A stretch of DNA of 64,000 nucleotides from NCBI GenBank assembly GCA_029980465.1, contig JARYIJ010000001.1, forward strand, positions 1,885,749 through 1,949,748. Reading direction: 5' to 3'. The notes below the pieces were generated by a model. It saw only the letters and a program-made list of their open reading frames with translations, made no database searches and had not been told where the DNA came from. This DNA is from Pseudolabrys sp. GTDB taxonomy: Bacteria > Pseudomonadota > Alphaproteobacteria > Rhizobiales > Xanthobacteraceae. Positions 2 to 17,905 of the stretch are shown here, piece after piece; positions within the stretch are counted from its first letter, which is position 1, and every line of letters begins with the position of its first letter. The position numbers and the translations under genes were made by a program.

Positions 2-2914
2 CGGGCCGGCATTCGGCTCGATGCCTATCAGCTGCTACCGCTCCGCAAAGCATTGCGGTTGCCCCGAGTGAATCTCTTGATCGCAGACGATGTTGGCCTC
101 GGCAAGACAGTCGAGGCCGGCCTGGTGGCACGTGAGCTCCTATTGCGGCGGCGCATTGATTTTATGGTCATCACCGCACCGCCAGCAATGACCGTCCAGT
201 GGAAGGACGAACTTGAGAGCAAGTTCGGTCTATCGTTCGACATCGTCGATCGTGAGCGTGTGAGCGAGCTGCGGCGGCTTCGCGGTTTTTCTGTCAACCC
301 GTGGAGCACGGGGTCGCGATTCATTATTTCCCACAGCCTGCTGACCGAGGAGAACTACATAGCTGGCCTGCGTGATGTTCTTGGCGAGTTCCGGTCGCGC
401 GCATTATTCATAGTCGACGAGGCGCATCACGCAGCCCCATCCGGCGGCGCGCGATATGCAATATCCAGCCAACTTACGAGGGCCGTGCGCGAGCTCTCCG
501 AGCGCTTCGAGCATCGTCTGTTCCTGACCGCCACACCCCACAACGGCCATTCGAACAGCTTTTCGGCACTGCTCGAAATGCTCGATCCGCAGCGCTTCAC
601 GCGCGGCGTCGAGGTTCGCCCGCGGGACCTCGAACCGGTGATGGTGCGCCGGCTGAAATCGGACTTGAGGCGTCTCGGCGAAGCATTTCCCGAGCGAAAG
701 GTCGAAGCGATTCCGATTGCGGGCTTGCGCGAGGACACGCCGGAGCTCGATCTTTGGCGCCGCCTCGCCGACTATGGCGAGATGCGCAAAAAGCGCATTG
801 CCAAGCTGCCACCGCACAAGGCTGCACTTGCGAAGCTCTCCTTCGTCGGATTGCAGCAGCGGTTACTGTCCTCGATCCCCGCCTTTGTGCGCACATTGAA
901 AGCACACCGCAAGACACTACAGCGGCTGCTTGATGGGCAGCAGGAGCAGGTCATCGAGGCCGCGGCGCAAACGTTTGTCGACGGAAGCACAACTGACAAA
1001 ACCGAAGACCTAGGGTTGGAGGACGAACGGGCAGAAGCGTCGCTTGAAGTCGATGAGGAGATTGCGGCGGAAGCAGCAGCCGTTGTCGGGGCCGCCGATG
1101 CGTCGACCGCCGACTTGCGGGCGGAATTGGCTGCGGTCGACGACATGCTCGCGATAGCCGAACCTGCTGCCCTGAAGCCGGACGCGCGCGTACATTGGCT
1201 CGTGCAATGGATCAAAGCCAATCTGTTGTCTGGTAAAAATTGGAACGAGCGCCGGCTGATCATCTTCACCGAATGGGAAGACACCCGGCGTTGGCTCGAA
1301 CGGCGTCTCAAAGAGGCGCTGGCCGAAGCCGACCGGGTTGACGAGCGCATCGCAGTATTCACCGGCGCCACCGGCCAGGACCGCCGCGAGGAGGTGAAGG
1401 CTGCGTTTAATGCCGATCCGGCGAAGGAGCCGCTGCGTATTCTGATTTGCACCGATGCGGCGCGTGAGGGCATCAACCTGCAGACCTACTGCTCAGACCT
1501 CGTCCATTTTGATTTGCCGTGGAATCCCTCGCGCCTCGAGCAGCGTAACGGGCGCATTGACCGCAAGCTTCAGCCGGCCAAGCAGGTCTTCTGCCGCTAT
1601 TTCCGCTATGAGCAGCGCGAGGCCGACATCGTGCTTGAAGCGCTTGTCCGCAAGACCGACGTGATTCAGGACCAGCTTGGCTCTGCCGGCCAGGTCATCG
1701 AGAAGCGCATCAAAGACAGGATGGAGGCGGCCGGCATCGATCGCGGCGAAGCCAAGGCGCTCGCCAAGGCGATCGAGGAGGAAACCGACGCCGAACGACT
1801 GGCGCGCGCCCGGGCGGAAATGGATGACGAGGAGAAGGCTCGCTACGAACGCGTGGTGAAAGAGCAGCGGGACCTTCAGGACGCCCTGGAAAAATCACGT
1901 GAGCGCGTTGGCGTCGATACGCACGACCTCCAGCGCGTCGTCGGTGCTGCCCTGGCGCGCGCCGGGTTGTCGCTCGATTCCACGCGCGGCGAAACGGTCG
2001 GCAAGGCCGCCACCTTCAGGTTCGATCCGGACCACTTGGCGTTCGCCAAGGAGGCCGGCTGGCAAGATACGTTCGACGATCTGCGCGTGCGGCCGCGCAA
2101 ACGGGGCGAGCGCATCAACGAATGGCGCAAGAAAGTGCCGATCCGCGCGATTGCCTTCGAGCCGCCGCGCTTGCCGGACGGACGCGACGCGCCCGAGGTC
2201 GTCCAGGTCCATCTCGAACATCGGCTGGTGCGCCGGCTTCTGTCTCGGTTCATTTCGCAAGGATTCCAATCGGGCCTGTCGCGCATCTCGGTCATCGAAG
2301 GGCCAGGCGCGCAGCCGCGCCTCGTCCTCATGGGGCGGCTCGCCGTCTATGGCGCCGGTGCCGCGCGCCTGCACGAAGAGGTCATCCCGGTGACAGCGAT
2401 CTGGACCGAGGCGGAGCGACACATCAAACCGCTGCGGGCCCTCGGGGAAAGCGGCGAAGAGCGGACGCTCAATCAGCTTGAGGAGGCGTTGCGCGATTCT
2501 CGCGCGGCGCCAGCGATGGCCATTGGACGCATCCAGGCGCTGGTCGAGCGAGACATCGCCGACCTTGTTCCGACGCTTGAAAAGCTCGCCAACGAGCGCC
2601 TGGCGAAAGTCAAAGTCGATCTTGCCAAGCGCGGCGAAGCCGAAGCGAAGTCGCTCACCGAACTGCTGGACCAGCAACGCAAACGGATCGCCAAGGCCAA
2701 TTCGGATTTCGATCCCAACCAGCTGCTGCTGCCGGGCATCGCCGATGATGAGCGCCGAGAGCGCGAGGCCGACCGCCGCCATTGGCAAGGCCGGCTCATC
2801 CGTCTCGAAAAGGAAATCCGCGAGGAGCCCGCGCGCATCCGAGCCTCTTACGATGTGACCGCGCACCGGCTTGAGCCGGTCGGCCTGGTCTACCTCTGGC
2901 CGGCGACGGGTTGA
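2..2914 (+). CDS. drmD: DISARM SNF2-family helicase DrmD, 5' end outside window
   Basis: The reading frame is open from base 2, so the gene starts before the window; the first ATG is not its start. It encodes a large SNF2/helicase-superfamily 2 ATPase. Visible motifs are Walker A (GLGKTVEAG, about base 87), DEAH (VDEAHH, about 412), and the C-terminal helicase motifs V (DAAREGINLQ, about 1453) and VI (QRNGRIDR, about 1540). A long charged, coiled-coil-rich C-terminal part follows (about 1680-2880). In class-1 DISARM the SNF2 protein DrmD is encoded just before the methylase DrmMI, and here its stop overlaps the next start. The role is ATP-driven DNA translocation or remodelling in restriction of incoming phage DNA. 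The assignment rests on domain type plus gene order with drmMI, drmA and drmB downstream. Confidence 0.85.
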   Translation, partial: RAGIRLDAYQLLPLRKALRLPRVNLLIADDVGLGKTVEAGLVARELLLRRRIDFMVITAPPAMTVQWKDELESKFGLSFDIVDRERVSELRRLRGFSVNPWSTGSRFIISHSLLTEENYIAGLRDVLGEFRSRALFIVDEAHHAAPSGGARYAISSQLTRAVRELSERFEHRLFLTATPHNGHSNSFSALLEMLDPQRFTRGVEVRPRDLEPVMVRRLKSDLRRLGEAFPERKVEAIPIAGLREDTPELDLWRRLADYGEMRKKRIAKLPPHKAALAKLSFVGLQQRLLSSIPAFVRTLKAHRKTLQRLLDGQQEQVIEAAAQTFVDGSTTDKTEDLGLEDERAEASLEVDEEIAAEAAAVVGAADASTADLRAELAAVDDMLAIAEPAALKPDARVHWLVQWIKANLLSGKNWNERRLIIFTEWEDTRRWLERRLKEALAEADRVDERIAVFTGATGQDRREEVKAAFNADPAKEPLRILICTDAAREGINLQTYCSDLVHFDLPWNPSRLEQRNGRIDRKLQPAKQVFCRYFRYEQREADIVLEALVRKTDVIQDQLGSAGQVIEKRIKDRMEAAGIDRGEAKALAKAIEEETDAERLARARAEMDDEEKARYERVVKEQRDLQDALEKSRERVGVDTHDLQRVVGAALARAGLSLDSTRGETVGKAATFRFDPDHLAFAKEAGWQDTFDDLRVRPRKRGERINEWRKKVPIRAIAFEPPRLPDGRDAPEVVQVHLEHRLVRRLLSRFISQGFQSGLSRISVIEGPGAQPRLVLMGRLAVYGAGAARLHEEVIPVTAIWTEAERHIKPLRALGESGEERTLNQLEEALRDSRAAPAMAIGRIQALVERDIADLVPTLEKLANERLAKVKVDLAKRGEAEAKSLTELLDQQRKRIAKANSDFDPNQLLLPGIADDERREREADRRHWQGRLIRLEKEIREEPARIRASYDVTAHRLEPVGLVYLWPATG

Positions 2915-5900
2915 TCGCCATGGCGGCCGAGATCAAGCGCGATCCCGATCTGGAATGGCTGGATCACGTCCAGCCGGTCGGCCTGGTCGTGGCGCCGATG
3001 CTGCTGAAGGACCTTGGCCTCGCGCCATCGCGGCAAACCCAGGTCGACAGCGCGCAGGTCGCCGAGCACATCGAGGAGGACGAGAGCAAGCCGGCGCTGC
3101 GTGACCCTTGGCGCTTTGTGCACGACGTATTCGGCTGGGAGGTCGAGCATGTGGCCGGCAGTCCTGGCGGCCCCCAGCTGCCGGACGACGTGCATGTGCG
3201 CTTGCCGGAACATTCCACGACGCTCAGCCCCACCTGGGCGGTGAAGGAGCTTGGGCAATCCGAGCGGCCCTGGCAGCTGCTTGTGCGCATCGAGCCCGGC
3301 GTCGAACCGGACGCGCGCGGCACGCTCGACGGCTGGGAAGCGACGGCGCATCAGCGGTTCGAGCGCTTGCTGCGCGATACGAGCGTGTTCGCCGGCATAC
3401 TGATCTCCGACAAGGAGTTGCGCCTGATCTATGCGCCGCGCGGCGAAACATCGGGGCATTTGAGCTTTCCGCTGCGCGCGCTCGCCACCGTCGCAGGCCG
3501 GCCGATGCTTGGTGGCCTGAAACTACTGCTCGACTCATTTCGCTTGTTCGCGGACGCCGGCGACCGCCGCCTTCCCGCGCTGCTGAAGAAAAGCCGCGAG
3601 GCGCAGGCCGCCGTCTCCACGGCGCTCGCCGAGCAGGTGCTGGGCGCGCTGCACGAGCTGCTGCGCGGGCTTGATGCCGCTGCTCCCGACGTCATCCGCG
3701 ATCTCGCCCGACGCCGGCCCGGGCATCTCTATGAAGGCCTGCTCACCGTCCTGATGCGTCTCGTGTTCGTGCTCTATGCCGAGGACCGCGGCCTTCTGCC
3801 CTCGCGCAGCGACGGCCGCGCGCAGAAACTCTACGAGACTGGCTATTCGTTGCGCGGCCTCTACGACAAGCTCACCGGCGACGCTGCGCTCAATCCCGAC
3901 ACCATGGACGAGCGGCGCGGCGGCTGGGGCCAGCTGCTTGCGCTATTCCGGCTGATCCACAAGGGTCACCCGAGTCATTTCGTTCAGGCGCGCGGTGGCA
4001 AGCTGTTCGATCCCGATCAGTTTCCGTTCCTCGAAGGCCGCGCTGATGCGGCCGCCGCGCCCCGCGTCCTGCCCGTGTCCGACGGCTGCATCCTGCGGAT
4101 CCTCGAAGGCCTGATGACGCTCGCCGCAAAGGGCGGCGCCCGCGAGCGGCTGTCCTACCGCACGCTCGATGTCGAGCAGATCGGCTCAGTCTACGAGACC
4201 GTGATGGGCTTTACGGTCGAGACCGCGTCCGGGCGCGCGCTCGCCATCCGCGCCGGCAAGAACAACCGCACGCCGGTGTTCGTTGATCTCGACAAGCTCG
4301 CCGCCGCCAAGGGCAAGGACCGCGTCAAGTTCCTCAAAGAGGAAGCCGACCGCGGTCAACTCTCGGCGGGCCTTGCCAAGGCGGTGGAGGCTGCCAAGTC
4401 CGCGGCCGAGCTTGCCGCCGCCCTCGATCCGATCGTCGACGAGCGCGGTTCGCCCAAGAAGCACGAGATCGCCGCAGGCCTGCCGATCCTGCAGCCGACC
4501 GATGAGCGCCGCCGCACCGGCAGCCATTACACGCCGCGCAGCCTCACCGCGCCGATCGTCGAACATGCGCTGGAGCCGGCGTTCGCGCGGATCGGGCCCG
4601 ATGCGACGCCGGAACAGATTCTCGATCTGAAAGTGTGCGATCCGGCCATGGGTTCGGGCGCCTTTCTGGTCGAGGCCTGCCGCGCGCTTGCGGCGCGGCT
4701 GGTCGAGGCGTGGTCACGCTACCCCGAGAAAAAGCCGACCATTCCAACGGACGAGGACGCCGAGCTGCATGCCAAGCGGCTGGTCGCGCAGCGTTGCCTC
4801 TACGGCGTCGACAAGAACCCGCTTGCCACCGATCTCGCCAAGCTGTCGCTGTGGCTCGCCACGCTCGCGCGCGATCACGAGTTCACCTTCCTCGATCATG
4901 CGCTGAAATCCGGCGACAGCCTGGTGGGGCTGACGCAGGCGCAGATCGCGGCGGCGCATTGGGATACGTCAAAGCCCGGCCTGCCGCTGTTCCGGCGGCT
5001 GGTGCAGGACCGCGTCGCCGAGGCGATGAAGGGCCGCGCCGAAATCCAGGCCGCGCCCGACGACACCGCGCGCGCCATCCAGGAGCAGCGGCACCGCTCC
5101 TTGGAAGGACGGCTGAAGGACATCCGCCTGATGGGCGACGCTGTGATCGCGGCATTCTTCGCCGAGGACAAGCCGAAGGCGCGCGAGAAGAAGCGTGCGG
5201 AGGTCGAGAGCTGGTTGGGCGGATCACCAGTACCCTGGGACAAGCTCGCCGCCATGGCCACGACATTGAAGCAAGGCACGCATCAGCTCACGCCGTTTCA
5301 TTGGCAGATTGAGTTTCCGGAGGTGTTTGCGCGAGCCAATTGTGGATTTGATGCGATGGTTGGCAATCCCCCGTTTGCCGGCAAGAACAGCATAGTAGGG
5401 TCGAACCGCGAAGGCTATCTCGACTGGCTGAAAGCTTTGCACGAAGGCTCGCACGGCAACGCCGATCTCGTGGCGCATTTCTTTCGTCGTGCTTTCGCGC
5501 TGTTACGCGAAGGTGGCGCTTTCGGGCTGATCGCAACCAATACGATCGGTCAAGGCGACACGAGGGCAACGGGGCTTGTCGTGGTCCTTCGCGCCGGCGG
5601 AGCGATCAGCCGCGCCATCAAACGATTACAATGGCCGGGCGAGGCGGCTGTCGTGGTTTCCGTCGTACATCTAGTTAAAGGGCGGGTCCGTTCTCCTGTC
5701 CTCGGCGCCCGGCAAGTTTCACGCATTTCGGCCTATTTAGTCGAAGGTCAGATGGATGGCTCGCCGGAGCGCCTTGCCGCCAATATGCGGCAGGCATTCA
5801 TTGGATCGTATGTGCTCGGGATGGGCTTCACCTTCGATGATCAGGCCGCTGCAAAAGGCGAGGCTGAGGGTCTTGCAGCCATGCGTGCCTTGATCGCTAA

Positions 5901-6951: not shown

Positions 6952-6973
6952 TCGTGCCAGCGCAGAGTAGCCG

Positions 6974-8392
6974 ATGCCAATCTGTAGTCGATGCGGCAAT
7001 GAAATTGAATTCCGCTACATAGACGGCCGCTGCATCCCATTGCATTTTGATGGCGGATGCAGCGGGTCCGCGCGCTCGGATGTTTACGATTACGCCGGCT
7101 ACAACCGAAGCAAAGAAAGCAGCTGCTTTCAAACGAAATGCCCCGAGTGCAAGAAGCCGGTCTACTTCATCCGTCACAACGGCGGCAGCGTTTGGATCGA
7201 TCCACCGTTGGGACCGCCCTGGTACAAGCATCCTTGCATGGACAAAACCTACGTGGCGGCGAAAGGCATTCGCTCGTCGGCCGTGCCAGAATCCGCTCTT
7301 GCAAAATTCAAGCAACGCGAGGGTCTCATCATCGGAGTCGTGACGGAGGTCGAGGCGTCTGCGTCGAAACAATGCTCGTTGATCACGATCGAAACCGGGA
7401 AGGACGTGAGCATTGTGCTTTTGATGAAGAACAATGCCGGTTTCCTCGTTGGGAGCCTCGTTCTATATGACCAGCGCGGCAAGAGCGTCTCTTGGGTCGA
7501 GAACGACAGCTACACTTTCCGCGTCATCGCCCGTCTCAAACCTCGTTTCATTCGACCGGATTTGCTAGCGCTGCGGATCGAATGCCCTGAGTGCAATGCC
7601 ATGATCGCGACAGGCGATATCGCGGAACACATGAAGCGGCAGCATTGGTTTCCTCGAAGATTCGATCTGGATCGGTATCCGGATCAAAGCGCGCCGGTGA
7701 AGCATGCGGGCGGTGCAGTTCGCAGCAATAAGGCGAAGCCTGCGGCCCCGCAACGCATTTGCCCCAATCCGTCGCGATGGAACGACGTACACAAGCAACT
7801 GGTCAATTACGCCGAGGCGCATTCCTGTCGTCCGAGCAGGCCGCCTGCACCGCTCATTCTGGCGGGGTGGGCCTACAGCAACGACACCGAGAAGATGCAC
7901 AGGTGGAAAGAGACCGTCGATTGGGCGTCCGCCAATGGCTGCGCCGAGATCGTCAAAGCAGTTTCAGATCAAGATTTATACAAGGTCGAAGAGCCGACCA
8001 CTTATTCAATCGGTCCGATGGGCGGCCCGTGTTACCGCCAATGGGATACCGAAGCCAAGGTGAGGCCGCCCGAGGAAGAGTTGGCGAAGCATTTCGAATA
8101 TCTGTCGGCTCATTGGGTTGATGTCGCAGGATTGGACCTTTCAATGGTTACACGCCCCGTAGCATTCACGGGCAAAAAAGCGCGGCGCTTGCTGGTGCAG
8201 GCTGAAGGTGAGGCCATCCCGCCGTGGGGAGGATGGTTCGATCGATCGACGGAAGAGGCGAAGCGACGCACCTTCACCCGATTCCGTTCTGCGGTTAATA
8301 AGGCAATCGCTCCACATGAAGTGGATCATATCGATTTTGTCACCGACGAAGAGCAGGCCCGTGCATCGCCTCCGATAACTTCTGCCGGATGA
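6974..8392 (+). CDS. zinc-ribbon protein of unknown function in the DISARM locus
   Basis: This 472-residue protein begins 22 bases after drmMI. The N-terminal 90 residues hold repeated Cys pairs (CSRCGNE near residue 4; CPECKKP near residue 58), and a second CPEC with a distal HMKRQH (residues about 204-223) resembles a C2H2 finger. The middle section (about 105-190) is predicted beta-rich. Such pairs usually bind zinc and contact nucleic acid or protein. I do not recognise the family. Because it is directly downstream of drmMI on the same strand, it probably belongs to the first DISARM transcript as an accessory protein, but that role is inferred from position only. Confidence 0.6.
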   Translation: MPICSRCGNEIEFRYIDGRCIPLHFDGGCSGSARSDVYDYAGYNRSKESSCFQTKCPECKKPVYFIRHNGGSVWIDPPLGPPWYKHPCMDKTYVAAKGIRSSAVPESALAKFKQREGLIIGVVTEVEASASKQCSLITIETGKDVSIVLLMKNNAGFLVGSLVLYDQRGKSVSWVENDSYTFRVIARLKPRFIRPDLLALRIECPECNAMIATGDIAEHMKRQHWFPRRFDLDRYPDQSAPVKHAGGAVRSNKAKPAAPQRICPNPSRWNDVHKQLVNYAEAHSCRPSRPPAPLILAGWAYSNDTEKMHRWKETVDWASANGCAEIVKAVSDQDLYKVEEPTTYSIGPMGGPCYRQWDTEAKVRPPEEELAKHFEYLSAHWVDVAGLDLSMVTRPVAFTGKKARRLLVQAEGEAIPPWGGWFDRSTEEAKRRTFTRFRSAVNKAIAPHEVDHIDFVTDEEQARASPPITSAG

Positions 8393-8408
8393 AAGTGGAT
8401 CGATATCC

Positions 8409-9113
8409 GTGGCTCGATTGAACCCAAATTATGGTAGCGAGCTTCACCTTCTCCGAATGCTTGGCCGTCATCGCGAACATTTTATCCGAAAGGTCTGCGA
8501 AGCGACGCGGGCTGAGCATGTTGAATGGCTCGATTTCCCATCGGGCGAGATGCGCCGGGACAAGCAAGGAAACATCCTGTGGGATCGGGAATGGCATCAG
8601 CTGCAATTCCTGCCGGCGGCCGACCCTGCTAGAAAGGCGTGGGAGACGGCTTGGCCGACGCATCGAACGGGTCACAACTGGGATGCGGTCGGCCGTCTTC
8701 GTTTTGGTGCGGCGCATGAATGGCTGCTCGTCGAAGCCAAAGCCAACGTCGAAGAGATCTTGTCCGGCTGTCAGGCAGCCGATGCCAGGAGCGTCGCGCT
8801 AATTGGGCAAACTCTGAATGCGACCAAGGCGGCCCTCGGCGTAACGGCAAGCTGCGACTGGAAGCGGCCCTATTATCAGTTCTGCAACAGGCTGGCGGCA
8901 TTGCATGTTCTCAACCGCACCGGCACGCCGGCGCGGCTACTTTATGTCTACTTTTGCAATGATGTGGGCGACCAGCGCAGGACCTGCCCAGCGTCGGAGG
9001 AAAGCTGGCGGGCCGAGTTGGCGAAGCAGGACCAACATGTGGGCCTCGCAGTCGATCATCCCCTCCATGATCGCGTTCATAAGCTTTTTCTCGATGTACA
9101 GTGCATTGAATGA
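8409..9113 (+). CDS. PD-(D/E)XK-like nuclease candidate
   Basis: This 234-residue protein starts at a GTG, 16 bases after the zinc-ribbon gene. Residues about 95-118 contain HNWDAVGRL and then WLLVEAKAN. An acidic residue followed after a short beta-hairpin by E-x-K is the core signature of the PD-(D/E)XK nuclease fold. No membrane segment or signal peptide is visible. If the fold is right, it could supply a DNA-cleaving activity to this locus. The call is a motif-level inference; the protein could also be a catalytically dead member of the fold. Confidence 0.55.
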   Translation: MARLNPNYGSELHLLRMLGRHREHFIRKVCEATRAEHVEWLDFPSGEMRRDKQGNILWDREWHQLQFLPAADPARKAWETAWPTHRTGHNWDAVGRLRFGAAHEWLLVEAKANVEEILSGCQAADARSVALIGQTLNATKAALGVTASCDWKRPYYQFCNRLAALHVLNRTGTPARLLYVYFCNDVGDQRRTCPASEESWRAELAKQDQHVGLAVDHPLHDRVHKLFLDVQCIE

Positions 9114-9159
9114 GCTGCGGCGTCTACGCCGCGAGATTTGAGCTTTTGCCAGGGTAGGA

Positions 9160-10134
9160 ATGATGCCGATCAAGCTGACGGAGCTGATTGAGCGCGTTCC
9201 GCCGGCGGTGGAGGAGAAAGTCCGCCGCGTGCGGGATCAGGTGCAGCCCGCCGTCCGGGAAGCGCTCCGGGCGGAGTGCCGTCTGATGTTCCGAACGCCG
9301 GAGGAGGCCGAGCAGAAGCGGCCGGGTGCGCAAGTCCCGGTCGAGGTGGCGCCTGGCTATCCCGCAGTGCTCAAGGACGTTCAGTTTCCCGATGACTTCG
9401 AGCGCATCATGTTGCTCGGACGCTATCGAGCGTTGCTCGAACAGGCTCGTAGCGGGGCTTCGGGGCTCCTGAGGTTGCGCGACGAGCTTTTGGGCCGGCC
9501 GGAGCCGGACAAATGGGTTTCCGCGAGCGCAGCGGACCTGCAATCGGTCGCGAACTGGGCTGCGGCGCTACTCAAGGTGCTTGACCAACACGATCCCTTG
9601 AAAAAAGTGCTGTCCATTCGCGAGGACTTCCTCGGCATCTATCAGTATGACGCGAGCGACTTGCTCGCCGACGAAAGGGCGGTCAACCGCGCCACCATCC
9701 GGCTCTATTGGGGCGTCATCGGACTGGTATCGGAATGGTTCGGTTGTGGTATCGAGGATTTGGCGATTGTGGTGCTCACGCACGAACTGGCGCATGCCTA
9801 CACCCAGCTTGGCGCCGACATCGAAGGTCGTCGGTGGGCTGCGCCTTCCTTTGCCAAGGCTGAAACCGCGCTGAAGGAAGGCCTCGCGCAATACTACACG
9901 GATCGTGTGCTGCGCCGGCTGGAGCGCCGTTACGGCGGTGCGCTCAACGTCTTCCTCGGTCTGTTGCCCGGCCAGCCCGAACCGTATCGGGCTCATCAGC
10001 CGTGGGTAGAAACCTCATCACCGGAAGCCGTCCGCCGCGCCATGCTGGAAGTCCGCCGCTGGAACGAAGGCAAGTTGGCCGACTTCAACCGGCGTCTTGG
10101 CGCCGCGCAGAAGGAACTCGCTCCGAAGGCGTAG
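9160..10134 (+). CDS. HExxH metallopeptidase-like protein in the DISARM locus
   Basis: A 324-residue protein with a good ribosome-binding site (AGGGTAGGA) before the ATG. Residues 208-212 are HELAH inside a hydrophobic helix (VVLTHELAHAY), the HExxH zinc-protease signature. Glu240 in KEGLAQYY, 28 residues downstream, is well placed as the third zinc ligand, as in gluzincins. There is no signal peptide, so it should act in the cytoplasm. It does not look like the small ImmA/IrrE peptidases found elsewhere in the window, which have a different context. Its place between the nuclease-like gene and the drmA block suggests a protease that processes a regulator, effector or phage protein. That role is inferred. 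Confidence 0.6.
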   Translation: MMPIKLTELIERVPPAVEEKVRRVRDQVQPAVREALRAECRLMFRTPEEAEQKRPGAQVPVEVAPGYPAVLKDVQFPDDFERIMLLGRYRALLEQARSGASGLLRLRDELLGRPEPDKWVSASAADLQSVANWAAALLKVLDQHDPLKKVLSIREDFLGIYQYDASDLLADERAVNRATIRLYWGVIGLVSEWFGCGIEDLAIVVLTHELAHAYTQLGADIEGRRWAAPSFAKAETALKEGLAQYYTDRVLRRLERRYGGALNVFLGLLPGQPEPYRAHQPWVETSSPEAVRRAMLEVRRWNEGKLADFNRRLGAAQKELAPKA

Positions 10135-10203
10135 CGAGGGCGAGCGGCGGTGAACTATTCGGCCGTGAATCCGTTGTTAACTAGATCGGCGGAGGATCGA
10201 GTC

Positions 10204-10476
10204 ATGACGCGCGCCGAACTTGAGCGGGTCCGGGAATGGGCCTTGCAGAAGCTGGCCACGGGGCAAGAGCCCCCGTGGGCGTGGTATCAGTACATGAAGC
10301 TTCGCGAGACGCTCGACGCCATCCTCGCTGGAGTTGATGCGGTCACGCCGCAAACGGCGAATTCACCGCAAGAGGCGCCACGTCGGGGAACGCGTCTCCG
10401 ATTAGTGGAGGCCACGCGTTCGCCAGATAGCGCTCAACGCCATCGAGCTGATGAGCCGGTACAGCTGCCCATGTGA
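10204..10476 (+). CDS. small hypothetical protein
   Basis: A 90-residue ORF preceded by GGAGGA with good spacing; I chose the ATG at 10204 over an upstream in-frame start at 10150. The first 50 residues (MTRAELERVREWALQKL, then a PPWAWYQYMKLRETL stretch) look like a compact helical protein. The last 45 residues are low-complexity and lie antisense to the GIY-YIG-like gene, so the true conserved part is probably N-terminal. No function is recognised. It ends the first + strand block of the DISARM locus. Confidence 0.5.
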   Translation: MTRAELERVREWALQKLATGQEPPWAWYQYMKLRETLDAILAGVDAVTPQTANSPQEAPRRGTRLRLVEATRSPDSAQRHRADEPVQLPM

Positions 10477-10702
10477 CGCGCAGCTTGCCGTGCTTTTTGT
10501 AGGCCAGGATCGCGGCATCGCGACGATGAGCACCAAGGCGGCTTGCGATGTCTCCCTGGCCGATCCGGACCACCCGGCCCGGATTGCCCTCATGCCAAAT
10601 GACATACACGCCGTTTTTGGCCGTGACGGTTCCCAGATCGAGCAGCTCCAGGTCGCAGTAGTGACCGTCGTTGCCGCATTTCATCCAAGCTACTGAAATC
10701 AT
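10343..10702 (-). CDS. GIY-YIG-like nuclease-fold protein
   Basis: A 119-residue protein read against the DISARM genes. I started it at the ATG at 10702, which follows an AAGGGAA ribosome-binding site. Residues about 28-60 (NGVYVIWHEGNPGRVVRIGQG) match the beta-hairpin pattern of GIY-YIG proteins (GVYVI followed by VVRIGQG), and a later DGVERYLA segment carries a possible catalytic Glu. Its 3' end overlaps the 3' end of the small + strand gene by about 134 bases. It has its own promoter, back to back with that of the XRE-ImmA regulator. It could be a small endonuclease or a non-catalytic relative. Confidence 0.55.
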   Translation of the reverse strand: MISVAWMKCGNDGHYCDLELLDLGTVTAKNGVYVIWHEGNPGRVVRIGQGDIASRLGAHRRDAAILAYKKHGKLRVTWAAVPAHQLDGVERYLANAWPPLIGDAFPDVAPLAVNSPFAA

Positions 10703-10761
10703 TGAAGTTCCCTTTCTGGTGTCGGCGATGCATCGCATGCGCCGAATCGATCATTGCTATG

Positions 10762-10814
10762 CATATATCACGACGCAATAATTTCTTGCAAATTGACTTT
10801 CGCAAGGATATATC
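10762..10814. promoter_or_regulatory. divergent promoter pair sharing a palindromic -35 box
   Basis: On the + strand, TTGCAA (10786-10791), a 17-base spacer and TATATC (10809-10814) form a sigma-70-type promoter before the XRE-ImmA gene. On the - strand the same TTGCAA, which is its own reverse complement, is followed after 18 bases by TATATG (CATATA at 10762-10767) towards the GIY-YIG-like gene. The word ATATATCA occurs at both -10 elements and is a plausible operator half for the XRE protein. The elements are seen in sequence; their use is inferred. Confidence 0.55.
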
Positions 10815-10835
10815 AATGGCCTCCGGAGGCAATCG

Positions 10836-11939
10836 ATGACAACCAATCTGATCGGCGCGCGCATCAAGGCACTGCGCGAGGAGAGAGGCCTTTCCCAGGA
10901 TGATCTCGCGCGCATTTTCGGATTCAAGGACCGGCAAACCGTCTCCGCAATCGAAACCGGCGAACGCCGTGTATCGGCCGAGGAGCTTCTGACCGCCGTT
11001 GAGAAGCTCAATGCTTCGCTCGACTACTTCACCGACCCATTCCTGTTGGCCGGCGAAGGCAAGTTCTCCTGGCGCCGACATCCGAGAGTGGGACTTGAAA
11101 GCGTCAAGGCGTTTGAACGTGTCGCGGGTCGCTGGATTGCAGCGAGTCGAACGCTGGCGGACCAGGTGGGCAGGCCTGCGCCGATCTTGCGTCAATCCCT
11201 GAAACTCACTTCCCGAAGTAGTTTCGAGGATGCGATGGCAGCCGGCGAACGCTTTGCGCTCGAGTTCCAGCTAGGACCTATTCCTGCGGAGAAGCTCGCG
11301 GAGGTCATGGAGTGCCAGCTCGGCATCTTAGTGCTGATGGTGGATACTATCGATGGTGTCTCCGGCGCGGCATGTCGTCTTCCCGATCTCGATGGTGTGC
11401 TTATCAACCGTCACGAAGTAGCTGGACGACGCAATTTCGATCTTGCGCACGAGCTGTTCCATATCCTCACGTGGGACACGATGCCGCCCGAGTATCTTGA
11501 GGACGCAACCGAATACAGCAAGATTCGCGTAGAGCAGCTCGCGAATAATTTCGCGTCCGCACTGCTGATGCCGGAAGCGGCCCTCAAGGATTTTGAGCGC
11601 GCTTCGGCTGAAGGCGACATTGTTTCGTGGCTTAATGCGACGGCCGATAGGTTGCAGGTCACGGCAACCGCTTTGAAATGGCGGCTTGTCGCGTCGAAGC
11701 GGCTTGATGCTGCTCGGGCGCGAGCAGTTTCAGACGACGAGCTTCGCTACAATGGCCACGAGGGGCCGACCGGCGAGCCGCCGCCGTTATTCTCGAAATC
11801 CTTCATGGAGGTCCTGGGGCAAGCGATTAACGAAGGCCGCATTTCGGCGCGCCGTGCCGCCAACCTTCTCGATCTGACAATTGAGGACCTGGCCGATCTG
11901 TTTGAACGACATGCGGTCGAGGCGCCGCTAGACCTATAA
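10836..11939 (+). CDS. XRE-family regulator fused to ImmA/IrrE zinc peptidase
   Basis: A 367-residue fusion. Residues 1-65 form an XRE helix-turn-helix (LSQDDLARIFGFKDRQTVSAIE). Residues about 180-250 are an ImmA/IrrE-type peptidase with HELFH at 205-209 and the family's downstream EQLANNFASALLMP. The known role of such fusions is repression that is relieved when the peptidase domain senses stress or a partner. GGAGG precedes the ATG. It is the first gene of a block that continues into a PIN-domain gene, drmA and drmB, so it probably controls the DISARM core and itself. Confidence 0.8.
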   Translation: MTTNLIGARIKALREERGLSQDDLARIFGFKDRQTVSAIETGERRVSAEELLTAVEKLNASLDYFTDPFLLAGEGKFSWRRHPRVGLESVKAFERVAGRWIAASRTLADQVGRPAPILRQSLKLTSRSSFEDAMAAGERFALEFQLGPIPAEKLAEVMECQLGILVLMVDTIDGVSGAACRLPDLDGVLINRHEVAGRRNFDLAHELFHILTWDTMPPEYLEDATEYSKIRVEQLANNFASALLMPEAALKDFERASAEGDIVSWLNATADRLQVTATALKWRLVASKRLDAARARAVSDDELRYNGHEGPTGEPPPLFSKSFMEVLGQAINEGRISARRAANLLDLTIEDLADLFERHAVEAPLDL

Positions 11940-11955
11940 AATACATGAGCGCCCG

Positions 11956-12474
11956 ATGGCTCGTCACAGCGGTCCTGTCCTAGTGGACACAAATGTAATC
12001 CTTGAGTGCTGGCGGATTGATGCCTGGAAGGCGCTCGTGGGAGGGTATGGGGTCGAGACGGTGGAAGACTGCGTGATCGAAACTCAGACGGGCTTTCAGC
12101 GCCGACGTGCCGAGCAGCAAATCGACAATGCGCAATTGCGCGCCTCGCTGACGGCAGTTCAGAAGGTCGGAAACAAAGAATACGCCGCTGCCGCGGTGCG
12201 TGATGCGTTGTTCTCGTCACTCGATGTCGGTGAGCGGTCGCTTTGGGCGCACGCCCTGACGCGAAGCGAGGCATGGGTTCTGTGCGGTCCTGATAAGGCG
12301 AGTTTACGGCTCGGAGTACGGCTCGGTTTTCGCGACCGCTTGGTCGCGCTTGAAACGCTGCTGAATGACGTTGGCTTTCGATCGAAGGTGTCCCTGAGGA
12401 CCAATTACACCGCAAAATGGCACGCCCAGGCACTGAATGAAATCATCGTTTTGGAAGGGCCGAAACGCCCATGA
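11956..12474 (+). CDS. PIN-domain protein (putative ribonuclease)
   Basis: A 172-residue protein 16 bases after the XRE-ImmA gene. It opens with VLVDTNVILECW (acidic Asp at about residue 11), the beta-strand-1 signature of PIN nucleases; GERSLW near residue 93 and CGPDKAS near residue 113 supply further candidate acidic residues. The ribosome-binding site is weak, so it is probably translated by coupling. Its stop overlaps the drmA start (ATGA). A regulator gene followed by a PIN gene resembles toxin-antitoxin logic, but here both lead into drmA. Substrate unknown. Confidence 0.6.
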   Translation: MARHSGPVLVDTNVILECWRIDAWKALVGGYGVETVEDCVIETQTGFQRRRAEQQIDNAQLRASLTAVQKVGNKEYAAAAVRDALFSSLDVGERSLWAHALTRSEAWVLCGPDKASLRLGVRLGFRDRLVALETLLNDVGFRSKVSLRTNYTAKWHAQALNEIIVLEGPKRP

Positions 12475-15400
12475 CGCGATCAGTCGACATTCGCGCTAAG
12501 CTGGTGGACGTGTTCCGACGTGATCTTGTCGGGCCCGGCCCTCAAGATGCCGATCTGGCGACCGAGCGCCTCAGCGAGAATCCCTCGCGCTGGTATCTGA
12601 CGGGATTTCTGGCACCCGCGGATGATCCGCTGACTCAAAGCGGTCCGGATGAAGATGAGGAGAATCCTTCGGCACAGGAGGAGATGGAAATCGATGTCGA
12701 GGAGCCGGCGGATGAGGGCGCCGGTGGCGCGGCCGGCGATGCCGAGACGCCCGAGGCACCGAACACAAAACGACGCTTTCTCCCGTCATCGATCGGCTTG
12801 ACGGTACTCTTGCCGCCAGAGGTCACTCAAATCGAGGCGCGCGTCTGCTGGGGTGATTACCGTACTGAGCCGCCCCTGCACGAGGGCTTGTTTATCCCTG
12901 AGGAGTCGCAGGACAAAGACCGCGAGACGAAATCCAAAAAGAAAGAACAGGTCGAATGGGTGCGCGTGCCGCAAGAGCGTACGGTTCTTCTTCGCGTTCC
13001 CGTTGATGGCTTTCGCGGCGAGCCGCTCGTCGTCCCGGAAAGCGCAGCGCCGCAGCGCAAGGGCGGAGGTCTGGCGCTCGAAACTCATGCACGACTGTTC
13101 GACTACGACACACCGGACGGCAAGGAACAGGTCAGAGCCCTCACGGTGTTCGTAGTGAACCGCCGCGCAACGGTTCACCGTTTCTATGCTGACGTGAGCT
13201 ACGCTTTCCAAGCGCGACTCGAACTCGTTTGCCCGGAGGGCTTCCGGCCGCGGCGCGATTTGTCGGGCTACAAGTCGAATGATCCTGACATGCGGCTCGC
13301 CGATCTGCATTACCGTGATATTTGTGAGTATGCGGTGGGACGGAACGCTGCCGCATCGTGGGACCCCGCCGAGGAGAAATCTGGAAAGATCACGCGGGCG
13401 TGGACCGATCCCCTCCCGCAGGCAGAGGTTGAACGGGTGGCGCCGAACGAGGATGAGCCGCTCAAATCGCGCGTCATGTTTTCGATGGAAGCGCTTGCCG
13501 AGCGTGCGACAGCGGGCGGCGACTCATTGCGCGAGGCGCTTGCAGATCTTCCCGTGCTATATGCCGACTGGATCGCAGCCGAACGCAAGAAAATCGATGG
13601 TCTACCGGTGCGTCGCGGTGAGACGGCCGCGCGCCTCACTACGGATATGGAAGAGGCACGCCGCAGGATTTTAGAGGGCATCGATATTCTTGCCCAAAGC
13701 ACAATCGCTCGAACCGCTTTCAAGTTCATGAATTTGGCAGTCGCCATGGCTGCGAGGCGACGAAATGCAGAAGCAACGGGCGACCCAGCGACACAGGTAG
13801 CGCCAGAATGGCGTCCATTCCAACTCGCCTTCATCCTCTTGAATGTTGCGGGTTTGGCGGACCGCACGCATGCGGACCGCGAGATTGCCGATCTTCTGTT
13901 TTTTCCAACGGGCGGCGGCAAGACGGAGGCCTATCTCGGTCTTGCCGCCTTCGTGATTGCGTATCGCCGATTAACCGGACCTGGTGTGCTTGGCGCGGGT
14001 GTTGCCGTGATCATGCGGTACACGCTGCGACTGCTCACCCTCGATCAATTGGCTCGGGCCGCAGGCGTGATCTGCGCACTCGAACTCATGCGCGTGGATC
14101 CCAGCAATGTAAATGATAGGGGACGGCGCCAACTCGGCGACTGGCCGATCGAAATTGGACTTTGGGTTGGTTCAGATGCATCCCCTAACCGGCTTGGCCG
14201 CACGGGCGACGCCGACCAAACCACAGCAGTCGGACGAGTTCGCCGGTACAGAAACGGACAGGACAAGCGCGCGCCGGCGCCGATCAAGGCGTGTCCATGG
14301 TGCGGCACGCCCTTCAAGCCGGCATCCTTTGCCTGCGTGCCGAACAACGCCGCTCCGATCAACCTCGAAATCCGCTGTGCCAACACGGCCTGCGAATTCA
14401 CCCGTGATCGCCCACTTCCGATTCTCACCGTCGACGAACCCATTTATCGCCGTCTCCCAGCCTTCGTCATTGCGACGGTAGATAAATTCGCAAGTCTGCC
14501 TTGGGTCGGTGAGACGGGAGCGTTTTTCGGCCACGTGGACCGATTCGCCGATGGAGTTGGCTTCTATGGTGCCGCCGAGCCGGGCCGGCACGGTCAACCG
14601 CTTGATAATGGCTGGTCGCTCGATCCGCCCGATCTGATCATCCAGGACGAGCTTCACCTCATCGCCGGTCCCCTCGGCACCATCGCGGGCCTGTACGAAG
14701 CGGCAATTGATCAACTTGCGTCCCGCCACAAAGGCGGAAAGCGCATTCGGCCAAAAATTGTAGCTTCAACTGCTACCGTTCGGCGCGCAAGCGATCAGAT
14801 CAGCGCGCTGTTTGATCGTTCGCGCACCAGCATTTTCCCCCCGCCTGGAATTGATCGCACAGACAGTTTCTTTGCCCGAACCGTTCCCAGTACGGAAAAC
14901 CCAGCGCGGCTCTATCTCGGCATCGCTGCGCAAGGACGAGGGCCCAAGCTTGTGTTCTTGCGCTCTCTCACGACCTTGCTTGCTGCCGCTGCGGCGGCAT
15001 TCGAGGCAAACGCTGCGAATTCCGAGGCAGGCATCAATCCCGCTGATCCCTATATGACGGCGCTTTGTTATTTCAACGCGCTGCGGGAATTGGGTGGCGC
15101 TCGCCGAATTGTGGAAGACGAAGTCCGGGACCGTACCGAGCGCTACGGCACACAAAGGCGGCGTGTCGATCCGAAAGACAGTCCATTCGCCGATCGCAAA
15201 ATCAAACAGCCGATGGAAATCACGTCGCGCGTTTCGACCGATGACGTTGCAGAAGCGAAGCAACGCCTCGACGCGGTGTTCGGACGCGATGAGGAGCCGG
15301 TGGATGTCGCGCTTGCTACCAACATGATTTCAGTTGGTCTCGACATCTTGCGGCTTGGCCTGATGGTGGTTCAGGGTCAGCCGAAGACAGCGGCCGAATA

Positions 15401-16016
15401 TATACAGGCGACGAGCCGCATCGGCCGAGACTATAACCGACCCGGTTTGGTGTTGGTTGTTCTCAACTTGCACAAGCCACGAGACCGAACGCATTTCGAG
15501 CAGTTCGGGCACTTCCATCGCAGCTTCTATCGCTCAGTGGAGGCGACCAGTGTGACGCCTTGGGCGGCCCGCGCCCTCGATCGCGCGCTCGCTGCGCTCG
15601 TGGTTTCGGCATTGCGTCATGTGGATCCGACACTGACGCCCGACTTGGCGGTGAAGGAGCTCAAGAATTGTGCAGCTGCCCGGACAGCCGTGAGAGAGGC
15701 GATCCTTGAGCGCGCCCCTGACAAGGATATTCCCGGCGGGAAGGCTGCCCTTGGCGTGATGGTCGATGATCTTCTGGAGGCGTGGATGGCAACATCAGAC
15801 GAACAAGCGGCTGGTGGAAACGTCTTTGCTTATGCGCATAAGAAGAGCCCCCATCGGCTCTTGCACATGCCGCTCGCTCCGGAAATTCCAAACCTCAGTG
15901 TCACGCACAGGAAATTTCTGGCGGGGCGATCGATGCGGGACGTTGAACCAAGCGTAAGCCTCAATCCTCGTGATCCCCAGGGCCGCCCCATCGCCAATGC
16001 GGACGATCTCGCATGA
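12471..16016 (+). CDS. drmA: DISARM helicase DrmA
   Basis: A 1,181-residue superfamily-2 helicase. An acidic, low-complexity segment lies near residues 50-95. Walker A is PTGGGKTEAY (about residue 484), a DExH-like box is IIQDELHLI (about 724), and the C-terminal motifs are ATNMISVGLD and QATSRIGRD (about 950-985). A CPWCG...CANTAC zinc-binding insertion sits near residues 607-640. DrmA with DrmB forms the core complex of DISARM and binds or moves on unmethylated foreign DNA. The start codon overlaps the PIN gene and the stop overlaps drmB, indicating tight co-translation. Confidence 0.9.
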   Translation: MTRSVDIRAKLVDVFRRDLVGPGPQDADLATERLSENPSRWYLTGFLAPADDPLTQSGPDEDEENPSAQEEMEIDVEEPADEGAGGAAGDAETPEAPNTKRRFLPSSIGLTVLLPPEVTQIEARVCWGDYRTEPPLHEGLFIPEESQDKDRETKSKKKEQVEWVRVPQERTVLLRVPVDGFRGEPLVVPESAAPQRKGGGLALETHARLFDYDTPDGKEQVRALTVFVVNRRATVHRFYADVSYAFQARLELVCPEGFRPRRDLSGYKSNDPDMRLADLHYRDICEYAVGRNAAASWDPAEEKSGKITRAWTDPLPQAEVERVAPNEDEPLKSRVMFSMEALAERATAGGDSLREALADLPVLYADWIAAERKKIDGLPVRRGETAARLTTDMEEARRRILEGIDILAQSTIARTAFKFMNLAVAMAARRRNAEATGDPATQVAPEWRPFQLAFILLNVAGLADRTHADREIADLLFFPTGGGKTEAYLGLAAFVIAYRRLTGPGVLGAGVAVIMRYTLRLLTLDQLARAAGVICALELMRVDPSNVNDRGRRQLGDWPIEIGLWVGSDASPNRLGRTGDADQTTAVGRVRRYRNGQDKRAPAPIKACPWCGTPFKPASFACVPNNAAPINLEIRCANTACEFTRDRPLPILTVDEPIYRRLPAFVIATVDKFASLPWVGETGAFFGHVDRFADGVGFYGAAEPGRHGQPLDNGWSLDPPDLIIQDELHLIAGPLGTIAGLYEAAIDQLASRHKGGKRIRPKIVASTATVRRASDQISALFDRSRTSIFPPPGIDRTDSFFARTVPSTENPARLYLGIAAQGRGPKLVFLRSLTTLLAAAAAAFEANAANSEAGINPADPYMTALCYFNALRELGGARRIVEDEVRDRTERYGTQRRRVDPKDSPFADRKIKQPMEITSRVSTDDVAEAKQRLDAVFGRDEEPVDVALATNMISVGLDILRLGLMVVQGQPKTAAEYIQATSRIGRDYNRPGLVLVVLNLHKPRDRTHFEQFGHFHRSFYRSVEATSVTPWAARALDRALAALVVSALRHVDPTLTPDLAVKELKNCAAARTAVREAILERAPDKDIPGGKAALGVMVDDLLEAWMATSDEQAAGGNVFAYAHKKSPHRLLHMPLAPEIPNLSVTHRKFLAGRSMRDVEPSVSLNPRDPQGRPIANADDLA

Positions 16017-17905
16017 GCAAGAATGCTCAACGCCTAAGCCAAGTCGTATCAACCTTTGGGCCTGGAGCCATGGTTGACCTACCGACGCGCTCCGTTGTCG
16101 TCGGCGGCTTAGAGCTGTGGGACATGAGGGGCGACTCATTCAAAACAATTCCCGAACCGCGGCTCACCATGAGGTTGGAACAGCTGCTCAAGGAACAGGG
16201 GCGCCTTGGGGAAGCGAGAAGCTTGTCGTTGCGAACGCCACCAGTCAGCAATGGTATAGCCAACAATCTACCGAGCGGAGTGGCTGCGCCGGTCTTTCCA
16301 AGCTGGTTCGTGTGTGAACAGGTCGAGACTGCGACGGTCGGCAATAGGCCAGCGCGGCGGCGGCGGCTTGTGCGCTGGCAGGACCTCGATACGCGTGGGG
16401 GACGCCGGAAGTTCACATTTGACGACGGCAAGAAGTCAGATGTAACACCGATCCGATTCGTGTGTGCATGTGAGAAAGGCCACTTGCAAGACATCGACTG
16501 GAAGTGGGTGGTACACGGCAACCAGTCATGTCTCGAACCGATGTGGGTCGAAGAAATCGGGACCAGTGCAGACCCGGCCGACATGACTATTGTTTGCGGT
16601 TGCGGAAAGCAGCTGTCGCTCCAGGCTCTATTTCAACCGGGACGACCGGGAAACTGTCGCGGCGAGCGACCCTGGCTGTTGGACAGAGACCCGGATGGTT
16701 GCGATCAGAAGCTGAAGCTTCTCACGCGTACCGCCACAAACACCTATTTTCCACAAGTCTACACGGTCATCTCACTTCCAACCGAGGAGGACGAGCTGAC
16801 GAAGCTTGTCGATGAACTATCGGGCGAGCTGAGTAACGTCACGTCAGTCAATGACATTGCGGCGGCTAAGCGATTCAATTCCAAAGTCTCAGCCACGCTC
16901 GGATCGTACTCGGACGCCGATATTTTTGCTCGCCTGCAACGCATCCGCGAGGGCGCGAGAACTGATGCGCTTCGATCGCCAAAGCTCTCCGAGTTCGATA
17001 TTTTTGCCAGTGGTCGTGCTGAGATTGGTCAAAATCACCCGACGGCCAAGCTTTACGCTCAAACGCTAGAACGCGGATATTGGGCTGACCCGACTACCGG
17101 TCTTGATCTATCTGGCATCAAGAGCGTCGTCGCGGTGCACCGGCTTCGAGAGGTATCTTGCTTGTATGGATTTACGCGATTTGAAGCGGCACCGACGAGC
17201 GCCGATGGCGAACTTGAGGACATACAGCTTGCGGTGCGCGGGGCGCCAATCTCGCGGGATGCAGATTGGTTGCCGGCAATTGAACAATTTGGCGAGGGAA
17301 TCTTTATTCATTTCGATGAGGCCGCAATCGCGCAGTGGCTCAGGAGTGAAGCGACCGCACGCCGCAGCAATAAACTGATGGCCGGATACGGACACTGGCG
17401 TGCGCGATTCAGCGGAAAGGCGCCCAATTATCCTGGAACGGCCTATGTTCTGTTGCACAGCCTTTCACATGCGCTCATGGCGGAGATCGCGCTCGATTGT
17501 GGATATCCGGCCAGTTCTCTAAAGGAGCGTGTCTATGCTCTTGCCGGCGCGGAGTCAGACAGCGGCAATGATCGCTACGGAATTCTGATCTATACCGCGA
17601 CGGCGGGAGCTCAAGGCACCCTTGGCGGCCTCGTCGGGGCGACTCGGCGCTTTTCGCACATTCTCCGGAGTGCACTTGAGCGTTCAGCTATTTGCTCGAA
17701 CGACCCAATCTGCGCTGACCATGAACCGGATAATCGCAGCGGTGACCGCGCGACCCATGGCGCAGCTTGTCACGGGTGTCTGCTTATCGCGGAAACGAGC
17801 TGCGAGATGAGAAATCTATTTCTCGATCGCAATCTGCTTGTTCCGACTATGTCAACTGATGACTCGGCATTCTTTCAATCCTTCAATTCTTCTGCAGACG
17901 TCTAA
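16013..17905 (+). CDS. drmB: DISARM protein DrmB (DUF1998)
   Basis: A 630-residue protein with ATGA overlap to drmA. Cysteines in the N-terminal half (VCACEKGH near residue 146 and VCGCGKQ near 195) suggest zinc binding. The C-terminal part carries the DUF1998 pattern: LHSLSHALM, GILIYTATAGAQGTLGGLV, then a Cys cluster ending CHGCLLIAETSCEMRN followed by FLDRNLLVP. DrmB is the known partner of DrmA and is needed for DISARM protection. In many class-1 loci drmC (phospholipase D-like) follows; here the next gene is a phage gene on the other strand. Confidence 0.9.
   Translation: MSKNAQRLSQVVSTFGPGAMVDLPTRSVVVGGLELWDMRGDSFKTIPEPRLTMRLEQLLKEQGRLGEARSLSLRTPPVSNGIANNLPSGVAAPVFPSWFVCEQVETATVGNRPARRRRLVRWQDLDTRGGRRKFTFDDGKKSDVTPIRFVCACEKGHLQDIDWKWVVHGNQSCLEPMWVEEIGTSADPADMTIVCGCGKQLSLQALFQPGRPGNCRGERPWLLDRDPDGCDQKLKLLTRTATNTYFPQVYTVISLPTEEDELTKLVDELSGELSNVTSVNDIAAAKRFNSKVSATLGSYSDADIFARLQRIREGARTDALRSPKLSEFDIFASGRAEIGQNHPTAKLYAQTLERGYWADPTTGLDLSGIKSVVAVHRLREVSCLYGFTRFEAAPTSADGELEDIQLAVRGAPISRDADWLPAIEQFGEGIFIHFDEAAIAQWLRSEATARRSNKLMAGYGHWRARFSGKAPNYPGTAYVLLHSLSHALMAEIALDCGYPASSLKERVYALAGAESDSGNDRYGILIYTATAGAQGTLGGLVGATRRFSHILRSALERSAICSNDPICADHEPDNRSGDRATHGAACHGCLLIAETSCEMRNLFLDRNLLVPTMSTDDSAFFQSFNSSADV

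Follow-up and report, generated by a model that had tools for sequence, protein, structure and literature searches.

The 64,000-nucleotide stretch of Pseudolabrys sp. DNA analysed here (hereafter the window; G000:C1:1885749-1949748, in a 3.77-Mb genome of two contigs) opens with a DISARM defence locus in which two genes, termed F and G, are placed immediately upstream of the helicase gene drmA. All four drm genes lie on the forward strand. The SNF2-like helicase gene drmD (2..2914) matched the NCBIfam model NF038317 with 900 bits against a cut-off of 610; its 5′ part lies beyond the window edge, and the frame opens upstream of it at G000:C1:1885441, giving ∼1073 codons by arithmetic. It is followed by the adenine methyltransferase gene drmMI (2911..6951), which matched the PADLOC DrmMI model with 1238 bits over residues 11-1329 of 1346 and carries Eco57I and MmeI Pfam domains. 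Further downstream are drmA (12471..16016; NCBIfam DISARM_DrmAS, 1109 bits against a cut-off of 950) and the DUF1998/MZB gene drmB (16013..17905; NCBIfam DrmB_fam, 538 bits against a cut-off of 240). The model tests identified both the DrmA-DrmB core pair and the DrmD and DrmMI proteins of class 1 DISARM. With all four genes supported by models, three of them above curated cut-offs, this confirmed that the locus is a genuine DISARM system, as the initial annotation had proposed from the motifs and order of these genes. The same annotation had reported a 5.5-kb block of extra genes between drmMI and drmA and the lack of drmC after drmB. Both observations held: the interval from the end of drmMI (6951) to the start of drmA (12471) contains the open reading frames (ORFs) A-G, and the ORF list shows no phospholipase D (PLD) gene downstream of drmB, where the next genes are phage genes on the minus strand.

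Gene F (10836..11939, forward strand) encodes a protein of 367 amino acids (aa) in which an XRE helix-turn-helix (HTH) domain is fused to an M78 peptidase of the ImmA/IrrE type. Both Pfam domains were detected above cut-off (HTH_3, 1.2e-13; Peptidase_M78, 1.1e-11), and the HELFH sequence of F was preserved in 12/12 DISARM copies. A sequence search returned weak matches to IrrE chains (E 0.003-0.008), and the HTH matched chains of the restriction-modification (RM) C proteins C.AhdI and C.BclI. Among the PADLOC models, F scored up to 75 bits with RmrA (a name whose meaning we did not find), 59 bits with capP and 22 bits with capH. Gene G (11956..12474, forward strand) encodes a 172-aa protein with a predicted PIN fold, overlaps drmA by 4 bp and has 2037 database relatives. 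The residues D11, E42, D90, E93 and D113, which make up a conserved acidic site, were preserved in 11/12 DISARM copies. Both features of the Xre-COG2856 + PIN-type pairs were present, namely the fusion of an HTH to an HExxH-bearing M78 domain and an adjoining PIN gene with an acidic site.

We compared 22 loci with drmD, drmMI, drmA and drmB: the window, ten loci from related genomes (L045-L054), eight from wider searches (L068-L070, L072-L076) and three from plasmids (L061-L063). L028 and L047, which represent a single contig, were counted once. Four of the 22 are imperfect, in that drmD was partly matched in L062, drmMI is split by an insertion sequence (IS) element in L063 and lies in two frames in L072, and drmA is truncated in L076. 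The drmA-like loci L071 and L055-L057, which gave no drmD or drmMI matches of note, were included in the drmA tree and kept outside the 22. F-G was found immediately upstream of drmA in 12/22 loci (the window, L047, L049, L050, L052, L053, L054, L061, L062, L063, L074 and L076), and in 8/19 when only genomes found by DrmA itself, above the DrmAS cut-off, were counted. These copies reach beyond one order, as L047 belongs to a Hyphomicrobiales genome and L063 to an Acetobacteraceae plasmid. The arrangement was constant: F and G were spaced by 6-16 bp in all 12 loci, G overlapped drmA by 4 bp in 11 of them and by 1 bp in L062, and the distance from drmA to drmB was -4 to +12 bp in 11/12, the exception being L076, where the truncated drmA is followed by drmB 3.7 kb further on. 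F-G-drmA-drmB forms a tight co-directional gene string in 11/12 loci. Nei-Gojobori dN/dS ratios for six pairs ranged from 0.08 to 0.14 for F and from 0.07 to 0.16 for G; both genes are under purifying selection. Furthermore, trees of F+G and of drmA agreed on the groups (window,L047), (L063,L074), ((L050,L061),(L052,L076)) and (L053,L054), and the F-G pair largely follows the tree of drmA.

Upstream of F, the motif TCTTGCAA-N10-GCAAGR was present in 12/12 loci with at most one mismatch over its 14 fixed bases. For this count the loci were aligned on the start codon of F, the search covered 160 bp from F, and the last base of the motif was scored as A. The motif ended 13-28 bp upstream of F in every locus, and an additional upstream half-site, GCAAnA, was present in 11/12. 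Identity among the 12 loci was 0.97 at the fixed bases, compared with 0.41 for the spacer and 0.29 for the 40-bp stretch between -60 and -20 of the motif. None of 500 first-order random sequences per locus contained it with one mismatch or fewer, and in the ten DISARM loci without F-G it was absent from the coding strand within 700 bp upstream of drmA, the best candidates having 4-6 mismatches. A longer version of the pattern matched once in the 64-kb window and in none of 100 shuffles, and when up to one mismatch was allowed, the core matched once in the whole genome. In the window, the predicted operator of F occupies 10775..10807 on the forward strand and consists of the half-site GCAATAA (10775-10781), TCTTGCAA (10784-10791) and GCAAGG (10802-10807). 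By eye, it overlaps a promoter-like element, TTGCAA-17 nt-TATATC (10786..10814, forward strand). In the plasmid locus L063, where drmMI is split by an IS5 element and the catalytic Asp of the PIN protein has been lost, F and the motif are intact.

The occurrence of the pair outside DISARM was assessed with a PIN profile, which matched in 8/199 related genomes and in 6/397 genomes of the order. In nine of the ten distinct genomes with a match, the PIN gene adjoins drmA. The remaining one, G090 (L077), showed no drmA on its 12.6-kb contig, and its pair was counted as lying outside DISARM. Three of the five plasmid matches were in DISARM; for both viral-contig matches, no drm gene was present in the stretch fetched. 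Altogether, 12/17 PIN-family loci were in DISARM. Two of the five pairs outside DISARM also carried the motif upstream of F, as an exact copy in L065 and with a spacer 1 nt longer in L086, and the motif therefore appears to belong to F. To judge from these sequence features, F and the motif look like an autoregulated repressor and its predicted operator that travel together, partly also outside DISARM. L077 contains in addition a distant drmMI-like match (26% identity) 2.9 kb upstream of F (L077:6423-12239), hinting that F-G may serve other methylase systems too.

The reading that we favour, with moderate confidence, is that F-G and the upstream motif constitute an autoregulated switch, which separates expression of drmA-drmB, the attacking half of the system, from that of drmD-drmMI, the marking half. 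F is likely an autorepressor that provides G-drmA-drmB with a promoter of their own, apart from drmD-drmMI. Minus-strand ORFs lie between drmMI and F in 5/12 loci (the window, L047, L050, L061 and L063), and this fits a break between two transcription units. F would repress from the predicted operator upstream of itself and so hold back G, DrmA and DrmB. The trigger might be single-stranded DNA (ssDNA) or DNA damage during infection, by analogy with CapH/CapP and IrrE: an ssDNA response has been reported for the M78 proteins PprI/IrrE (PMC10904395) and for CapP (PMC13373217). The protease half of F could then inactivate the repressor, in the manner described for CapH/CapP and for the IrrE/PprI-DdrO system, by cleaving either its own chain or another copy, and more G, DrmA and DrmB would be made. 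PIN proteins mostly cut RNA, and G may be an RNase produced together with DrmA that acts as a second layer of attack or arrests growth. A more far-reaching version, which we put forward only tentatively, is that a widespread DISARM branch provides two-stage immunity. The methylase and DrmD would stand ready, while an ssDNA-sensing one-protein repressor-protease restrains DrmAB and the translationally coupled PIN RNase; infection would arm DrmAB and free an RNA-cutting arrest module, and the slot between drmMI and F would collect exchangeable helpers shared with BREX and RM systems.

A switch of this kind bears on how DISARM spares its own cell and on when its parts are made. In PMC9142583, constitutively made DrmAB was proposed to be held back by autoinhibition; if the proposed switch is real, this DISARM branch would also be under transcriptional control. 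The locus offers a 40-bp DNA site and two genes for direct testing.

Several observations weigh against an autoregulated switch or limit its reach. Firstly, the sample is less independent than the count suggests. The plasmid loci L061-L063 were found by searching with G and are thus F-G-positive by construction, and three close pairs among the 12 loci leave fewer independent cases. Scoring in the PIN searches was limited to the best candidates of each genome (up to 17 in one search, up to 8 in the other), and the 2037 relatives of G came without context; pairs outside DISARM may therefore be undercounted. Secondly, dS exceeded 1 in 3/6 pairs, which makes those dN/dS ratios rough, and the position of L049 differs between the F+G and drmA trees. 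Thirdly, drmMI nearly abuts drmA (69, 105 and 213 bp) in 3/5 loci of the window's drmA clade that lack F-G, so DISARM does not generally require the switch. Finally, further points concern the regulatory elements. The promoter scan did not return the pair chosen by eye and gave another one (1 found against 1.8 expected from shuffles). A forward terminator was not detected in the window from ORF D to F, leaving read-through from drmD-drmMI possible. The exact motif core matched 23 times in the 199 related genomes, 8 times at F-G loci and 15 times elsewhere (5 times for the reversed pattern), and the core alone is thus not exclusive. Moreover, 3/5 pairs outside DISARM lacked a clear copy of the motif, those of L064 and L085 being degenerate at most and L077 having none.

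The individual parts of the proposed switch are of known kinds; the novelty is their arrangement inside DISARM. Class 1 DISARM has the same four genes in the same order, drmD-drmMI-drmA-drmB, often with drmC; here, drmMI and drmA are separated by a slot for cargo and by F-G, which has a motif of its own, and drmC is lacking at the locus. In the CapH/CapP modules of CBASS and other immune operons, an HTH protein and an M78 peptidase are likewise encoded upstream of immune genes, and PMC13373217 states that CapH/CapP or CapW regulate immune operons, including those of DISARM. Here, by contrast, a single 367-aa protein combines both halves, with a PIN gene after it; the pair is flanked by DISARM genes on both sides, and an ssDNA response is proposed by analogy only. 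As the repressor and the protease are fused in F, we did not file it as CapH/CapP. The RM C proteins, which time methylase against endonuclease expression (PMC13373217), share the HTH sequence match with F but are small proteins that lack a protease domain, the matched C.AhdI and C.BclI chains being 74 and 77 residues long. RptR-controlled type I RM islands resemble the arrangement predicted here, with a repressor and a conserved operator upstream of a defence operon; RptR belongs to another protein family, and the portion of PMC12255303 that we consulted mentions neither a protease nor a PIN protein. A precedent for the pair itself is that of the Xre-COG2856 + PIN pairs (Makarova 2009), in which a fused Xre-COG2856 protein is in many cases encoded in one predicted operon with a PIN or RelE toxin gene (PMC2701414). 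The sections of that source available to us do not place the pair in DISARM, whereas in the window the PIN gene overlaps drmA. Our literature searches returned no description of DISARM loci in which F-G and its motif stand between the methylase and helicase genes.

This precedent raises the possibility that F-G is an addiction pair, a toxin-antitoxin module that mainly serves to keep the DISARM element in the cell: F would restrain G, loss of the locus would free G, and the operon with drmA would be a by-product. Indeed, PMC2701414 regards operons that combine fused COG2856-Xre genes with PIN toxins as probably a new type of toxin-antitoxin system. In addition, plasmids and viral contigs carry relatives outside DISARM (L064, L065, L085 and L086), DISARM loci with F-G are found on three plasmids, and recombinase and RepB genes adjoin the locus in the window. 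However, a pure addiction pair need not hold one fixed place, with a stop codon overlapping drmA in 12/12 loci, nor need it largely follow the tree of drmA, and the L063 copy has lost its catalytic Asp yet retains F and the motif. We therefore regard an addiction function as conceivable but doubtful.

A second alternative is that G is a nuclease effector standing in for DrmC, which DrmAB would recruit to phage nucleic acid, with F merely as its regulator. A nuclease recruited by DrmAB was proposed in PMC9142583, and G overlaps drmA. In the loci compared, F-G was confined to the drmA clade in which no DrmC was seen, and in the sister clade a PADLOC DrmC follows drmB in 4/5 loci (L046, L068, L072 and L073). 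The absence in the window's clade refers to 17 loci, with L076 left out and L047 barely covered, most of the others being judged from ORF lists: DrmC was scored by PADLOC for ten chosen ORFs, the fetched stretch of L076 ends inside drmB, and that of L047 leaves only 0.7 kb after it. Yet the stretches seen of five members of this clade contain no DrmC although these loci lack F-G as well, and a substitute nuclease is therefore not required. The genome also encodes a weak DrmC-like protein elsewhere (G000:C1:3246109-3246960; 48 bits against a cut-off of 133), and the RNA preference of most PIN proteins counts against a stand-in of this type. Replacement of DrmC by G is accordingly improbable. 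The initial annotation had set the missing drmC against the standard class 1 order, drmD-drmMI-drmA-drmB-drmC. DrmC after drmB was seen only in the four sister-clade loci, and PMC9142583 reports that drmC is dispensable and often missing; its absence is common in the window's clade and not special to this locus.

The genes upstream of F behaved differently from F-G. In the window, the slot contains five ORFs. Gene A (6974..8392, forward strand; 472 aa) encodes a possible zinc-binding protein with 84 relatives and with Pfam zinc-finger matches only below cut-off. Gene B (8409..9113, forward strand; 234 aa) encodes a PD-(D/E)XK-like nuclease by motif, without a Pfam match, and its core WDAVG...LVEAKA is preserved in L040 and L087. 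Gene C (9160..10134, forward strand; 324 aa) encodes a predicted HExxH metallopeptidase without a Pfam match above cut-off. ORF D (10150..10476, forward strand; 108 aa) and ORF E (10343..10738, minus strand, antisense to the 3′ end of D; 131 aa) are uncertain; D has no relative in the compared loci, and E is GIY-YIG-like by eye, with no Pfam match and no relative on plasmids. Over the 12 F-G loci the distance from the end of drmMI to F varied from 332 to 3885 bp, and the contents differed. L047 carries gene C and two minus-strand ORFs, one of them DUF2188-like, while L049, L052, L074 and L076 share a 207-223-aa family, which starts with MGGISD in L049, L052 and L074 and has no Pfam match in the L049 copy. 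A DUF2188-like minus-strand gene is common to L050 and L061 and is also annotated in L063; L061 has an extra gene annotated as phospholipase D family, without a DrmC model match. The 342-aa ORF of L054 has related ORFs in L048, where F-G is missing; L062 contains a single gene, annotated as hypothetical, and the slot of L053 contains little. We conclude that A-E are exchangeable cargo between drmMI and the F promoter and not parts of the switch, which cautions that genes between drmMI and F-G can be of this kind.

The view of the initial annotation that all seven genes form one accessory module altering DISARM action is largely refuted by these cargo differences and very unlikely to be correct: the seven do occur together in the window, and listed relatives of A and G share, by eye, longest-contig sizes and sources three times (8319, 3529 and 11507 bases; the 8319 one also with C), so that A may accompany F-G elsewhere, but the sister locus L047 retains only C, the other compared F-G loci have other cargo or almost none, and relatives of C lie beside other defence systems in other phyla. 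What remains of the proposal is what looks like a regulated module limited to F-G, the only constant part, which recurs in 12 DISARM loci while A-E are replaced by other genes or almost nothing. Its presence in several unrelated genomes is the support that the initial annotation had called for. A predominance of accessory genes away from DISARM, which would have spoken against such a module, was seen for gene C but not for F-G.

As far as its neighbourhoods were seen, gene C had drmA nearby in 1/18 relative loci, comprising 17 loci from the genome collection and one plasmid (L028-L044, L066) from several phyla. Sixteen of these are distant relatives, listed at 29-40% identity in the searches; the two close ones are L028 (69%), which lies in DISARM, and L034 (61%), which does not. 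The close relatives are otherwise mostly proteins from metagenomes, for which no context is available. Six of the 18 neighbourhoods were classified by PADLOC or NCBIfam: BREX (L036), type I RM (L031), the DISARM copy (L028), DrmMI-like methylases (L043 and L030, the latter accompanied by helicases resembling DruE and DpdE) and a type IIG-like methylase together with a helicase (L044). In L066, an SNF2-like helicase adjoins the relative of C. The gene C family is a possible unnamed defence helper.

Lastly, the surroundings of the locus were inspected. A large serine recombinase gene and two RepB/ParB-like genes lie directly upstream of drmD (L002:11599-15010). Phage genes flank the locus on both sides, with a Sak4-like gene and an endolysin upstream and holin-like, endolysin and tail genes downstream (window 17968-38118); the two endolysins are of one family. 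The island may lie within or between prophages, and an attachment repeat around it was looked for and not found. Two adjoining minus-strand phage genes at 33127-35776 of the window each combine a ParB-like domain with a DNA methyltransferase. Elsewhere, the genome carries another DISARM-like set, which is divergent (G000:C1:3240393-3248660; L060:11394-19661) and comprises a DrmA-like protein (262 bits, below cut-off), a DrmB-like protein, the weak DrmC-like PLD protein and a methyltransferase. In L045, a prokaryotic Argonaute-like gene is located convergently just after drmB (L045:1-1326; PADLOC pAgo_I, 590 bits), and an ORF that looks similar by eye is found at the end of the L074 locus.

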